From Algoriphagus sp. Y33 (GTDB taxonomy: Bacteria; Bacteroidota; Bacteroidia; Cytophagales; Cyclobacteriaceae), in NCBI RefSeq assembly GCF_014838715.1, contig NZ_CP061947.1, positions 1,674,001 to 1,738,000 of the forward strand: a DNA stretch of 64,000 bases. The letters run 5' to 3'. The number at the start of each line of letters is the position of its first letter. The stretch's first letter is position 1. Of the stretch, positions 14,100 to 18,134 are shown piece by piece. The notes under the pieces were generated by a model that worked only from the letters and a program-made list of their open reading frames with translations, was not told the DNA's origin and searched no databases. The position numbers and the translations under genes were made by a program.

Positions 14100-14116
14100 A
14101 TGCAACATTGTTTCAT
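14100..14116. promoter_or_regulatory. TGCAA-N5-TTGCA-type operator, site 1
   Basis: Reads ATGCAACATTGTTTCAT: a 17-bp palindrome centred on 14108 with a single mismatched pair. Shares half-sites with three other sites at 14133, 17318 and 17347. Lies 47 bases upstream of the TonB receptor start. Confidence 0.65.
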
Positions 14117-14132
14117 GGATTGATGAGATTAT

Positions 14133-14153
14133 ATTTGCAATATAATTGCAAAT
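14133..14153. promoter_or_regulatory. TGCAA-N5-TTGCA-type operator, site 2, overlapping promoter/leader
   Basis: A 21-bp element: ATTTGCAAT and ATTGCAAAT are perfect inverted copies around ATA. The core is TGCAA-TATAA-TTGCA. It ends only nine bases before the receptor ATG, so a bound dimer would block transcription or its start. Together with site 1 it makes a tandem pair 35 bases apart centre to centre. Confidence 0.75.
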
Positions 14154-14162
14154 TAATACGCC

Positions 14163-16418
14163 ATGCTATTGTGTATTCCCGCTTTCACGGGTTTATTCCT
14201 ATTTTCTATAATTGAATTTAACACTGAAAGATTCTACCAGGATGATCAATTTGAATACCGCCCGTTGGTTGGTTTTTCGGATAAGCCATCCTTGGATACT
14301 ATCCCAAAGGATTCAGCGGCTTCCAGAGTCATGGAGCTGGAGGAATTTTTATTGAGTGAGCAGAGAGCAAGACAATTGAGAAATGAGGAATCGACCAATG
14401 TTGATTTCGTAAAGCAGAAATTCATCCGGGAAAATAGGGGAGGAAGCCTGATGAAATCACTGGAGAGACTTCCGGGAGTGAGCACAATAGGCATAGGGTC
14501 GGGGGCATCCAAGCCGCTGATCCGTGGTCTTGGTTTTAATCAGGTGATGGTGGTAGAAAATGGCATCAAGCATGAAGGTCAACAATGGGGAGCAGATCAT
14601 GGGCTGGAAATAGACCAATATGCTGCTGATCAGGTGATGATTATAAAAGGACCGGTTTCATTCAAATATGGCTCTGATGCAATTGCCGGAGTAGTGGATA
14701 TCAGTGAGAAACCGGCTCCAAGCGAAGATGGAATAGGTGGTTCTGTAGATTTGGGAGCCAAAAGCAATAATGCATGGCTAGGAGGTTCAGTTAATCTGCT
14801 TGCAAGAAAGAATAAATGGTTCGTAGATGGCAGACTCACCTATGCAACCTATGCAGACTTTAAAATTCCTACGGATTCGGTATTTGTGTATGATTTTGGA
14901 GTAGCCCTACATGGAAATAAAGTACGGAACACAGCGGGGAATGAATTCAATTTTTCAGGTAGAGTGGGGTACATCGGTGAGCATCTCCGAAATACGCTTT
15001 CTATGTCCAGAGTGAGGAGCAAGTCAGGTTTTTTTGCCAATGCACATGGTCTGGAGCCCCGACAAGTGGATACGGATCTTCATGACCGTTCCGATAGAGA
15101 TGTCCTCTTGCCGTACCAGGAAGTAGAGCATCTCAAGCTTATCAATAAATTGAGTTATTCCTTGGGCAACAACTTGCTTGAGCTGGATCTGGGCTATCAG
15201 CGAAATGACCGCAAAGAGTGGAGTCAATACGTCAACCATGGATACATGCCTCCTATCTATCCTTCGGAAATGGCTTATTCTTCCACGCTGGAAAGAGCTT
15301 TTGACAAAGAAGTTTTTTCCCTCAATCTGAGAGATGAGCTATTTTTGAGTAATCACACGCTGTCCTTTGGCGCAAGTGCAGAATATCAAAATAATGCCAT
15401 TGGCGGCTGGGGTTTTTTGATTCCTGCTTTTGAGCAATTCAGCTATGGATTCTATGCAGTTGATAAATATAAGATAACCCCCCTATGGCAGCTTACCGGT
15501 GCCTTACGCTATGACCATAGTCGTATTCATGTGTTCGAATACCGTGATTGGTTCCCAAGCGTAAAGGATCCCAATCAGAGCGGGAATCCCGACTACCTGA
15601 ATAGGGCGGAGGATTTCAAGAGAAATTTCAATAGCTTGGTTTGGTCCGTGGGTTTTAATTATGTGCCCGGAGATTTTAGCTTTAAAGGCAATGCCGGAAC
15701 GAGTTTCCGTACGCCTATAGCGAAAGAACTTGCTGCAAACGGCGTAAATTACCATTATTTCAGATACGAAAGAGGGAATGCTGAGCTATCACCTGAGCGC
15801 TCTTTTCAGCTGGACTTGGGAACTGAGCTCACCAAGGAGAATTGGAGTGTGAGTTTTAGCCCATTCCTAAACTATTTTCCCAATTATATTTACCTAAACC
15901 CTTCTTTTGAGCATGATTATTTATACGGTGCCGGAAATCAGGTGTTCAATTACACCCAAAGTGAGGTGTTCAGATATGGAGCTGAGATCAATGCTACTTA
16001 TCAGTTAACTCCGGTGCTGAGTACAGAATTGCTTGGAGAATACGTTTACGGCAAGCAACTCGCGGGAGACAAGAAAGGGTACACTTTGCCATTTTCTCCG
16101 CCACCCTCAGCTGTATTGAACTTGACCTATAAGCCTAATCTGCAGAGTGCATTCAAGTCTCCTTATTTGGCGTTGGATTACAGACTTACAGCCAAGCAGA
16201 CCAACATAGTTCCTCCTGAGAAAATAACTCCGGGCTATCAGTTGATCAATGTGCGGATGGGATCTAATGTAGCCATAGCCAATCGGAACATACAGGTCGA
16301 TATCCAAATACAAAATCTCTTCAATAACCACTACCTAAACCATACGAGTTTTTACAGGCTGATAGATCTGCCTGAACAAGGAAGGAACATTACTCTTTCT
16401 TTCAACTATCAGTTTTGA
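14163..16418 (+). CDS. TonB-dependent outer-membrane receptor, ZnuD-like
   Basis: 751 residues. The first ATG is forced by an in-frame stop seven bases upstream (TAA at 14154-14156). The N-terminal hydrophobic run (LLCIPAFTGLFLFSII) serves as signal peptide but lacks the usual positive start. There is no carboxypeptidase-D-like domain, unlike SusC proteins. The plug (about 95-185) has SLMKSLERLPGVSTIGIG, KPLIRGLGFNQVMVVENGI, the WGADHGLEID stretch and the IIKGPVSFKYGSDAIAGVVDI turn, resembling ZnuD-type metal receptors. The barrel ends in ITLSFNYQF. Two palindromic operators upstream and His-rich lipoproteins downstream point to regulated uptake of a divalent metal, zinc being the best guess. 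Substrate assignment is inference. Confidence 0.85.
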   Translation: MLLCIPAFTGLFLFSIIEFNTERFYQDDQFEYRPLVGFSDKPSLDTIPKDSAASRVMELEEFLLSEQRARQLRNEESTNVDFVKQKFIRENRGGSLMKSLERLPGVSTIGIGSGASKPLIRGLGFNQVMVVENGIKHEGQQWGADHGLEIDQYAADQVMIIKGPVSFKYGSDAIAGVVDISEKPAPSEDGIGGSVDLGAKSNNAWLGGSVNLLARKNKWFVDGRLTYATYADFKIPTDSVFVYDFGVALHGNKVRNTAGNEFNFSGRVGYIGEHLRNTLSMSRVRSKSGFFANAHGLEPRQVDTDLHDRSDRDVLLPYQEVEHLKLINKLSYSLGNNLLELDLGYQRNDRKEWSQYVNHGYMPPIYPSEMAYSSTLERAFDKEVFSLNLRDELFLSNHTLSFGASAEYQNNAIGGWGFLIPAFEQFSYGFYAVDKYKITPLWQLTGALRYDHSRIHVFEYRDWFPSVKDPNQSGNPDYLNRAEDFKRNFNSLVWSVGFNYVPGDFSFKGNAGTSFRTPIAKELAANGVNYHYFRYERGNAELSPERSFQLDLGTELTKENWSVSFSPFLNYFPNYIYLNPSFEHDYLYGAGNQVFNYTQSEVFRYGAEINATYQLTPVLSTELLGEYVYGKQLAGDKKGYTLPFSPPPSAVLNLTYKPNLQSAFKSPYLALDYRLTAKQTNIVPPEKITPGYQLINVRMGSNVAIANRNIQVDIQIQNLFNNHYLNHTSFYRLIDLPEQGRNITLSFNYQF

Positions 16419-16453
16419 GAATTCAATCAGTTTATAAACCAACTTAATACATT

Positions 16454-16924
16454 ATGAAAATTACATCCCTAATAGGAGCTGCTCTTCTTTCGCTGATGTT
16501 CATGTCCTGCGCTGGAAATGAAGATGAAATAGACACCCGGCCACCATCAATTTCTATGGATTTTGCTGAAGCATCGCCGGCACAATGCGCAGTTTTTCAA
16601 CGTGGCGAAACCCTGTCTTTTGAGGCTCAGTTTAGGGATAATTTTGAACTGGGAAGTTACAGTTTGGACATCCATCACAATTTTGACCACCATACCCATA
16701 GTACGGAGGTAAATGACTGCCAAATGGAGCCGGTCAAAACACCTGTTAACCCGTGGTTGGTGATAGAAGGCTTTTCTATACCATCTGGCCAAAGCGCTTT
16801 TAGAGCCAGCGAAGAATTGGAAATTCCAGAGGATATAGATCCCGGCGACTACCACTTTATGATCAAGTTGACAGATAAGGAAGGCTGGCAGACTATCAGG
16901 GGCATAAGTATCAAAATAGATTAA
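16454..16924 (+). CDS. DUF4625 lipoprotein with histidine cluster
   Basis: 156 residues, signal peptide with lipobox FMSC (Cys19), then a DUF4625-type beta-sandwich. A histidine-rich loop, DIHHNFDHHTHSTEV (about 73-87), could bind a metal ion. It begins 35 bases after the TonB receptor stop, so both share a transcript under the two TGCAA operators. The probable role is periplasmic or surface metal binding for the receptor. The family's biochemical role is not established. The opposite strand over the gene also stays open (147 codons), but it lacks family features. Confidence 0.85.
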   Translation: MKITSLIGAALLSLMFMSCAGNEDEIDTRPPSISMDFAEASPAQCAVFQRGETLSFEAQFRDNFELGSYSLDIHHNFDHHTHSTEVNDCQMEPVKTPVNPWLVIEGFSIPSGQSAFRASEELEIPEDIDPGDYHFMIKLTDKEGWQTIRGISIKID

Positions 16925-17045
16925 TGATGATAAAAAAACATCAAATCTTTTGACGATTTGGCTTACTCCGCAATAGAAAATCGGATACACAGTGAATTTG
17001 AAAGCCCGTATAACCGGTCTAAACTTTCATGTGTCCTACTAGTTA

Positions 17046-17304
17046 GAGCATGCTGAAAAACGTCAGTAATAGATCAAAAGCTATCATTTTGAATTACTAA
17101 CTCATTTTTGATGCGAACGGTTTTTCAGCGCGTGCAGGGGTATTGGCCACAATAGGTCTTTATGCATCAGAAAATGCCAGTACCGGGATTTTCAAGCTAG
17201 TCTCAGTCCTACCATCTTCTGCGTTGGCCTCATCCGAGGTATACCCACACATCTTCACTCGGCCGCCTTGAAGCTGGCATACCTGAGACTTTTTCAGCAA
17301 GCCC
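17046..17304. mobile_element. MITE-like element, 259 bp, with 15-bp terminal inverted repeats and 6-bp target duplication
   Basis: The left end GAGCATGCTGAAAAA (17046-17060) and the right end TTTTTCAGCAAGCCC (17290-17304) are inverted copies with two mismatches. Both are flanked by the direct repeat TAGTTA (17040-17045 and 17305-17310), a likely target-site duplication. A third inverted copy of the end (GGTTTTTCAGCGCGTGC) lies inside near 17119-17135. There is no open frame for a transposase, so it would depend on one elsewhere in the genome. Base composition is more GC-rich than the surrounding spacer. Confidence 0.75.
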
Positions 17305-17317
17305 TAGTTAAATTTAA

Positions 17318-17332
17318 CGCAACATTATTGCA
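17318..17332. promoter_or_regulatory. TGCAA-N5-TTGCA-type operator, site 3 (weaker)
   Basis: CGCAA-CATTA-TTGCA, one change from the consensus half-site. It lies 14 bases beyond the right end of the MITE's target duplication bracket and 32 bases centre to centre from site 4, mirroring the spacing at the TonB receptor promoter. Confidence 0.5.
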
Positions 17333-17346
17333 TGATTGATCTACTA

Positions 17347-17367
17347 ATATGCAACAATGTTGTATAT
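17347..17367. promoter_or_regulatory. TGCAA-N5-TTGCA-type operator, site 4
   Basis: A 21-bp near-palindrome centred on 17357: ATATGCAACA and TGTTGTATAT flank one base, with a single mismatched pair. It lies 57 bases upstream of the His-rich lipoprotein start. Confidence 0.7.
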
Positions 17368-17423: not shown

Positions 17424-18134
17424 ATGATACAGTCTAATAGAAGAATCTTATTGCCTGTGCTTGCAGCAGTTTCCTTTTTGGCATTTTCCTGTTCCGATGA
17501 CGATGATCCGGATCCCGTGGTATTGGAAGGCATACAAAAATCCAGTTTGGTTTTCACTGAAATATCGGGTGGGGATGATTTGGGAGCACATGGTGACCAC
17601 TTCCATGGGATCGGTTCAGCTACTGAAGGTGAATCTTTTACGGTAGAATTTGATGCGGAGGGCAATGCCGTTTCGGGCGGACATTTGCATCTAGATCCCG
17701 ATGGTATTTATAAGCTTGAATTACAGGCATGGGATTATCAGGGCAACCGTGTAGAAGGTGATTTCTTAAAGGATAAAGCCACTGCTGATCTTTACAAAGC
17801 ATTCTTAGTAGGTGGAGATTTGATCCTCAATCCTGATACAGATGATGAAACAGGGGCAATTTTCCAGCCTAGAGAGCAGACTTACGGGGATGAAACTGCT
17901 GTATCCGGGAAATACGAAACCACAGGCATCTTAAGCTATTTTACCATCGGTGAGGCTAATGAGGGAGGAACAATTATGATTTCATACATTTTGAGAGAGT
18001 TTGATAGTCCTGAGACAAAGGGGTTGGTGGAAAGAACTGACTGGAATTCCAGCGACTACACTAGTAAGTTCGCAGGGAAAGATGTTTTGACATTAGACTT
18101 TGAAATCCACGCTGAACATGAGCACGATCATTGA
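17424..18134 (+). CDS. Histidine-rich lipoprotein, probable metal-binding partner of the ZnuD-like receptor
   Basis: 236 residues with signal peptide and lipobox AFSC (Cys23), followed by an acidic linker (DDDDPDP). Three His clusters stand out: GAHGDHFHGIG (about 53-63), GGHLHLDP (about 87-94) and the C-terminal HAEHEHDH. Such clusters are typical of periplasmic zinc- or nickel-binding lipoproteins. No named domain recognised. It has its own TGCAA operators (sites 3 and 4) and terminator, making it a second transcription unit of the same presumed regulon. The MITE between the units does not touch either operator pair. Metal identity is inferred, not shown. Confidence 0.8.
   Translation: MIQSNRRILLPVLAAVSFLAFSCSDDDDPDPVVLEGIQKSSLVFTEISGGDDLGAHGDHFHGIGSATEGESFTVEFDAEGNAVSGGHLHLDPDGIYKLELQAWDYQGNRVEGDFLKDKATADLYKAFLVGGDLILNPDTDDETGAIFQPREQTYGDETAVSGKYETTGILSYFTIGEANEGGTIMISYILREFDSPETKGLVERTDWNSSDYTSKFAGKDVLTLDFEIHAEHEHDH

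Follow-up and report, generated by a model that had tools for sequence, protein, structure and literature searches.

The 64-kb window analysed here, which comprises positions 1674001-1738000 of the 6.38-Mb single-contig genome of Algoriphagus sp. Y33, carries a gene for a TonB-dependent receptor followed by a gene for a lipoprotein of the family DUF4625 and, further downstream, a gene for a second lipoprotein rich in histidine (His). Both transcription units are preceded by a pair of short palindromes, and these candidate operators of a metal-uptake regulon are the subject of this report. The first-pass annotation had described four sites of the form TGCAA-N5-TTGCA with at most one mismatch, arranged in two pairs directly before transcription units. 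All four are found at these places (Table 1), with distances of 35 bp (receptor pair) and 32 bp (lipoprotein pair) from centre to centre, and the ATG codons at 14163 and 17424 bear out that the first gene follows each pair directly. The site at 14136 has perfect 8-bp arms, ATTTGCAA and TTGCAAAT, and spans 21 bp in all, and the site at 17350 contains a perfect 11-bp core, CAACAATGTTG.

Table 1. Sites, predicted promoter elements and genes at the locus, and candidate regulator genes elsewhere in the genome
Feature	Position	Strand	Details
Operator 1, receptor promoter	14101..14115	+	TGCAACATTGTTTCA; 1 mismatch to TGCAA-N5-TTGCA
Predicted -33 element	14108..14110	+	TTG; inside operator 1 of receptor promoter
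Predicted -7 element	14130..14137	+	TATATTTG; perfect TAnnTTTG match; overlaps first two bases of operator 2
Operator 2, receptor promoter	14136..14150	+	TGCAATATAATTGCA; exact match; 21-bp palindrome counting flanks
TonB-dependent receptor	14163..16418	+	751 amino acids; Pfam Plug and barrel
DUF4625 lipoprotein	16454..16924	+	156 amino acids; PF15418 135.1 bits, above cut-off of 27
Operator 1, His-rich lipoprotein promoter	17318..17332	+	CGCAACATTATTGCA; 1 mismatch
Operator 2, His-rich lipoprotein promoter	17350..17364	+	TGCAACAATGTTGTA; 1 mismatch
His-rich lipoprotein	17424..18134	+	236 amino acids; no Pfam family; conserved HGDHFH (56-61), GHLH (86-89), H229
Fur homologue no. 3	genome 5492378-5492788		137 amino acids; Fur-superfamily domain PF01475 42.8 bits, above cut-off of 23.1
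Short receptor-linked Fur gene	genome 204868-205242		L036 16869-17246 (genome to 205245); upstream site 204795

Among solved structures, the receptor is most similar to ZnuD (4rdr, E=4.8e-22). Its earlier designation as ZnuD-like holds in the sense of a distant relative and not in the sense of membership, since it reaches 129.6 bits against the NCBIfam ZnuD model, for which the cut-off is 950. Its score against a heme-receptor subfamily model is marginally higher (131.5 bits, cut-off 316.85). A DUF4625 protein is encoded in the fetched flanks of all 80 receptor loci compared here, which are the best 80 of 351 confirmed. The DUF4625 lipoprotein of the window contains the His cluster HHNFDHHTH at residues 74-82, which is near-invariant in the family in the form HHNFDHHxH and was also examined in a set of 40 sequences. 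In an alignment of 81 sequences, D72, H74, N76, F77, D78, H80, H82, E85, C89, and H134 are invariant, and H75 and H79 are conserved in 97% and 91%, respectively. The second lipoprotein shows a similar picture, with H56, D58, H59, H87, H89, and H229 invariant among 12 sequences. The conservation of these residues in both lipoproteins fits a predicted capacity for metal binding. Between the DUF4625 gene and the promoter of the second lipoprotein lies an interspersed repeat of ~265 bp with 17-nucleotide imperfect terminal inverted repeats (17044-17306), which, counting this copy, is matched in full or in part at 30 places of the genome; the gap between the two genes measures ~500 bp in this genome vs 118-163 bp in two relatives (L053 and L056).

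Within the window, eight matches with at most one mismatch were found vs 3.8 expected, and one of 100 shuffles reached eight as well. For the whole genome, a third-order base model, with 224 kb of its own DNA as the training set, supplied the expected counts. The exact motif occurs 10 times vs 8.7 expected, and the loose motif, with up to one mismatch allowed, is no more frequent than chance predicts and therefore means little alone. For this reason, a refined core, TGCAAYANTRTTGCA, and pairing were adopted as criteria. The refined core occurs four times exactly vs 0.12 expected. Its backward-read counterpart is absent from the genome, which is a weak control because only 0.01 occurrences were expected. 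Pairs formed by two loose sites at a distance of 30-42 bp are expected 0.19 times in the whole genome, and five were found in the first 2.18 Mb alone, about one third of the genome, to which the listing of pairs extends. The refined palindrome TGCAAYAWTRTTGCA and pairing at 32-40 bp are thus far above chance. Of the genome scan that had been proposed at the outset, the part that relied on the loose motif yielded chance frequencies, while the refined and paired sites precede metal-type genes.

Besides the two pairs of the window, the five pairs comprise 196477/196516, 204625/204665, and 821197/821236, and each precedes a receptor, DUF4625, His-lipoprotein or MerC-GTPase/ABC unit. The small metal-uptake regulon that had been predicted is therefore supported but holds more units than the two originally noticed. 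The pair 196477/196516 is located upstream of two short open reading frames (ORFs) without Pfam match, followed by a second DUF4625 gene at 197210 (84.8 bits to PF15418), so that the only two DUF4625 genes of the genome are both found downstream of site pairs. The pair 204625/204665 precedes an operon encoding a TonB receptor, a DUF4876 protein, and a DUF6850 protein; a further site at 204795 on its opposite side precedes a Fur-family gene. An MbnP-family lipoprotein (PF20243; L036 18119-18991) is encoded near this Fur gene and the receptor operon. The pair 821197/821236 is flanked on one side by genes for a MerC-like protein and two COG0523 GTPases, on the other by genes for an ABC ATPase, an FtsX/MacB permease, and a DUF3299-like protein. 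One of the GTPases narrowly misses the NCBIfam model for ZigA (561.2 bits, cut-off 600). The DUF3299-like protein scores 13 bits against DUF3299, below the cut-off of 22, and a relative of it has no match among solved structures.

At the receptor promoter, the pair coincides with a predicted promoter of the form TTG-N19-TATATTTG, which conforms to the pattern of the primary sigma factor of Bacteroidota, with TAnnTTTG at -7 and TTG at about -33, as given in the passages available from PMC7366714 and PMC9723704. In the former, the -33 motif appears as TTTG vs ATTG in the receptor promoter. As the operators lie over the -33 TTG and against the -7 element, a bound pair would block both sigma contacts. 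The arrangement TTG-N19/20-TAnnTTTG was found at the pair in three of six pair orientations of this genome, including the receptor promoter, and in seven of 11 relatives with a pair; the latter figure comes from 12 of 79 upstream regions, which had been picked for having sites and one of which (L056) formed no pair. The spacing had been taken as a sign of cooperative binding. Coverage of the -33 and -7 elements explains the pairing at least as well, so that cooperativity is possible and not required.

Upstream DNA was available for 79 of the 80 receptor loci. Within 350 bp upstream of the receptor gene, at least one site with up to one mismatch was found in 18 of these, at least two sites in 12, and an exact site in 12; in 50 random draws, the respective means were 3.8, 1.06, and 1.38, and the maxima 9, 4, and 5. 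The nearest named receptor matches stem from Algoriphagus and Echinicola, and the family sample was accordingly taken as Cyclobacteriaceae. The expectation that orthologous promoters share the sites holds for all nine Algoriphagus/Echinicola and all three Dyadobacter receptor loci and fails for the Flavobacterium group (see below). The 15-mer TGCAACATTGTTTCA recurs in eight of the nine Algoriphagus/Echinicola promoters, L058 being the miss, and in all three of Dyadobacter; in L054 its position 1 is a C. A scan at operon heads identified 18 loci with sites, including three from Pedobacter, two from Chitinophaga, and one from Sphingobacterium. A motif-free scan for shared inverted repeats in promoters of the Flavobacterium, Pedobacter, Mucilaginibacter, and Chitinophaga groups yielded no convincing alternative box. 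Among 13 His-lipoprotein loci, the pair with a spacing of 32 bp is present in the window, L053, L056, and L230. The promoter sequence of L230 is identical to that of L056, and the two may come from one species. A single site was found in L059 and none in the eight more distant loci. The 15-mer of operator 2 at this promoter is identical in L053 and L056/L230.

Among the 60 genomes of the family sample, which include that of strain Y33, 42 have exact core sites, 109 in all vs ~6 expected by the own-genome base model. From relatives, 44 site loci were fetched, with 42 of the sites located in intergenic DNA upstream of genes vs 24% of random positions. A homolog of a regulon protein of strain Y33 is encoded within 1.5 kb at 25 of the 44 loci, 13 of them with a non-generic one. 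No regulon homolog was found at 18 loose-match loci of this genome, a set that excludes six further loci (L019-L024) of the regulon region itself, and no non-generic one at 29 loci of Fur homologue no. 3 in relatives. Further genes preceded by sites in relatives encode a ZIP transporter (L229, PF02535) and Fur proteins. In six of the nine Algoriphagus/Echinicola loci (L052, L054, L055, L057, L058, and L103), the receptor gene, a DUF4625 gene, and a Fur gene preceded by sites lie side by side, and in L055, L057, and L103 the cluster also holds MerC, ABC, FtsX, and DUF3299-like genes.

The genome encodes five Fur-family proteins, two of which are classical Fur-like proteins. The best solved matches of Fur homologue no. 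3 are Zur of E. coli (4mtd, E=7.7e-6) and FurB/Zur of M. tuberculosis (2o03), and Zur PRK11639 is the best of the seven NCBIfam models that it matches. In an alignment with E. coli Zur, its motif YALC falls on YVLC, and it retains both the cysteine (Cys) at this position, which is the sensor ligand in Zur, and the C-terminal Cys pair. The second candidate is the short Fur gene next to the pair 204625/204665. Its ATG-led frame is offset from the open frame, and its product is devoid of the Cys aligned to the Zur sensor and of the second Cys of the C-terminal pair, so that this copy looks degraded or reflects a base-calling error. Orthologs of it are divergently oriented to the receptor gene in the six clusters mentioned above, and those of L054, L058, and L103 likewise have no sensor Cys. 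The suggestion that a Fur gene might carry the same site was borne out by this clade, in which all nine fetched members have sites within 250 bp upstream, namely this genome, seven other Cyclobacteriaceae, and one Flavobacterium (F. seoulense); part of these sites are common to the divergent receptor gene. In another Fur clade, six of seven members have an upstream box, and four of its proteins (G004, G005, G022, and G054) are the sole match to Fur homologue no. 3 in their genomes. Together with the metal-type genes behind refined and paired sites, these Fur genes support the original proposal of a metal-dependent repressor of the Fur/Zur type.

Judged from gene content and comparative genomics, the sites are very probably operators of a Zur-type zinc-starvation regulon in Cyclobacteriaceae. 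The predicted regulon content is of the zinc type, with a ZigA-like GTPase, a ZIP transporter, the ZnuD-like receptor, and the MacB/DUF3299-like system. In the proposed mechanism, zinc-loaded dimers of a Zur-type protein of the Fur superfamily would bind the two palindromes of each promoter. At the receptor promoter, the -33 TTG would be covered by one dimer, a second dimer would overlap the end of the -7 TAnnTTTG, and RNA polymerase would be shut out. When zinc falls, the repressor would leave and the scattered regulon would be switched on. It would comprise the ZnuD-like outer-membrane receptor with the His-rich DUF4625 lipoprotein, the second His-rich lipoprotein, the receptor operon with DUF4876 and DUF6850, the second DUF4625 protein, the MerC-like protein, the two COG0523 GTPases, one of them ZigA-like, and the MacB-type ABC/FtsX/DUF3299-like system. 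The lipoproteins are probable zinc binders of the cell surface or periplasm and may then pass the metal to the receptor. A more far-reaching version, in which zinc would be captured at the surface by DUF4625 and the second His-rich lipoprotein and loaded onto the ZnuD-like receptor, the machine being Bacteroidota-wide and its control by the Zur box confined to Cyclobacteriaceae and some relatives, is put forward tentatively and is rather doubtful as a whole.

Several observations weigh against a Zur-type regulon as outlined here. None of the 26 receptor loci of the Flavobacterium group has a core-type site, L079 showing a loose match with one mismatch only. Among 148 genomes of the phylum, the core was found in 16, i.e., in strain Y33 and in 15 of 143 genomes from outside the family, and it is absent from all four other genomes of the same family in this draw; thus, the box belongs mainly to Cyclobacteriaceae and not to every member. 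The backward control pattern occurs in three of the 148 genomes. The -33/-7 geometry was not found at the His-lipoprotein, ABC, and MerC promoters of this genome (three of six) nor in four of the 11 relatives with a pair (L059, L090, L109, and L111), and L053, L056, and L059 have sites and no Fur homolog within the fetched flanks. In addition, Fur homologue no. 3 reaches 43.5 bits against PRK11639, for which the cut-off is 167; the missed cut-offs for Zur, ZnuD, and ZigA may be due to the distance between phyla. With up to one mismatch, finally, the motif occurs 248 times in the genome vs 306 expected, and this expected rate of the loose pattern would also fit an explanation by chance matches or by-products of AT-rich promoters. 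For the paired sites, that explanation is scarcely credible in view of the pairing, the refined core, the 15-mers exactly conserved across species, the intergenic placement, and the gene content.

With regard to the regulator, Fur homologue no. 3 is on balance considered to be the protein acting in this genome, an assignment made by sequence comparison. Core sites are present in 41 of 51 genomes with a match to it vs one of nine without (p=1.3e-4), in a test that ignores shared ancestry, which weakens the association as support. Furthermore, no site was found in the promoter of its own gene among the 30 closest loci (own and 29 family matches). The short receptor-linked Fur paralog (204868-205242) is kept as a rival that would act on the same operators with the same zinc logic. 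The upstream sites in all nine fetched members of its clade and its divergent position to the receptor in six Algoriphagus/Echinicola loci speak for this paralog, but its offset frames and the absence of two conserved Cys in strain Y33 make it an unlikely regulator here. Moreover, within the genus sample, only strain Y33 (275 bits) and G068 (89 bits) reach the level of the short Fur clade, the next score being 41, yet 13 of the 30 genomes, own included, have core sites. The operators could also answer iron, manganese or cobalt via a classical Fur or a DtxR-type protein. Two classical Fur-like proteins are encoded, one site of this genome precedes a siderophore-type receptor operon, and in three site loci (L227, L232, and L233) a gene for a DtxR-family-like regulator, tested against Pfam in L227 and similar in appearance in the other two, lies in divergent orientation to a gene resembling those for TonB receptors, at the start of which an exact core site is found. 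Control by another metal is nevertheless quite improbable, as the gene content is of the zinc type and the Fur clades with upstream sites differ from the classical Fur proteins.

Four single sites of this genome are left as candidates for the Zur-type regulon. The site at 816713 is upstream of an alkaline phosphatase gene (L037 4714-6239); in a same-genus genome (L228), an alkaline phosphatase gene is likewise located behind an exact site. An exact core site at 2354071 precedes an operon for an ABC ATPase, a siderophore-type TonB receptor scoring above its model cut-off, and an ABC-2/DUF3526 permease (L047 2393-7086), possibly a metallophore system. The core-type site at 3993236 lies directly before a gene for a thioredoxin-reductase-like flavin adenine dinucleotide (FAD) oxidoreductase (L038 3237-4200), and the site at 5068674 belongs to a metallopeptidase-like gene. 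FAD-oxidoreductase-like genes, judged by their first residues, are also found behind exact sites in L173, L222, L226, and L231 and would be an unexpected regulon member. The sites at 2651177 and 3344672, both inside ORFs, and those at 3062039 and 4412550 were not counted. Elsewhere in the genome, two similar-looking ORFs of ~130 amino acids (L040 4533 and L042 3771; genome 5724532 and 3338770) have a common upstream site, TGCAATANCCTTGCA. One of them just precedes a gene for a 1458-residue RND-type protein that is CzcA-like by eye, with the fifth Fur homolog nearby at 5730756. These elements possibly belong to a second metal regulator on the efflux side.

Control of zinc uptake in Bacteroidota is little described. 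Among the literature matches listed, judged by titles, abstract starts, and passages, no Zur box of Bacteroidota was present, and the box strings led to unrelated papers only. The available text of a Zur review (PMC6103462) contains neither Bacteroid nor Flavobacter, and that of PMC2770081, in which Zur profiles were trained on Firmicutes and proteobacteria, contains Cytophaga once and Bacteroid not at all. The sole zinc regulator from Bacteroidota among the matches listed is ZntR of Riemerella, described in the passages of PMC11960050 as a member of the MerR family. No mention of DUF4625 was found among the papers covered by the literature search. A defined box and a candidate regulator make a zinc regulon in Cyclobacteriaceae testable, and the association with them is a first functional lead for the unexplained His-rich lipoprotein family DUF4625. 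If the more far-reaching version of the proposal is true, its zinc-capture machine would resemble in design the pairs by which Bacteroidota capture sugars and siderophores.

The kind of system is itself known, and the box, the promoter geometry, and the link to DUF4625 are new. As in a Zur regulon, a conserved palindromic box precedes predicted zinc-uptake genes across related genomes, at the level of the family and not phylum-wide. Zur regulons of other phyla, as far as covered by the passages of PMC6103462 and, for Caulobacter, PMC4176598, are alike in having a Fur-superfamily regulator, a palindromic box over promoter elements, and TonB receptors, COG0523 GTPases, and transporters as targets. 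The boxes themselves differ: PMC4176598 reports GTTA-N5-TAAC as the core in proteobacteria vs TGCAAYAWTRTTGCA here. The receptor resembles ZnuD of Neisseria as a TonB-dependent receptor and differs from it by its DUF4625 lipoprotein partner. The gene cluster PA4063-PA4066/ZrgABCDE is similar to the MacB-type system found here under paired sites, with an ABC ATPase, a MacB-type FtsX permease, and a DUF3299-like protein. PA4066 is a DUF3299 protein, whereas the match of its counterpart in strain Y33 falls below the cut-off. According to the portions of PMC11481552 that were available, analogs of this cluster have been reported to be controlled by Zur in several bacteria, including P. aeruginosa and Vibrionaceae. 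Finally, XusA/XusB, as described in the passages of PMC12574912, likewise consists of a TonB receptor and a partner lipoprotein for metals; XusB binds iron-loaded enterobactin, whereas the DUF4625 partner described here is His-rich.

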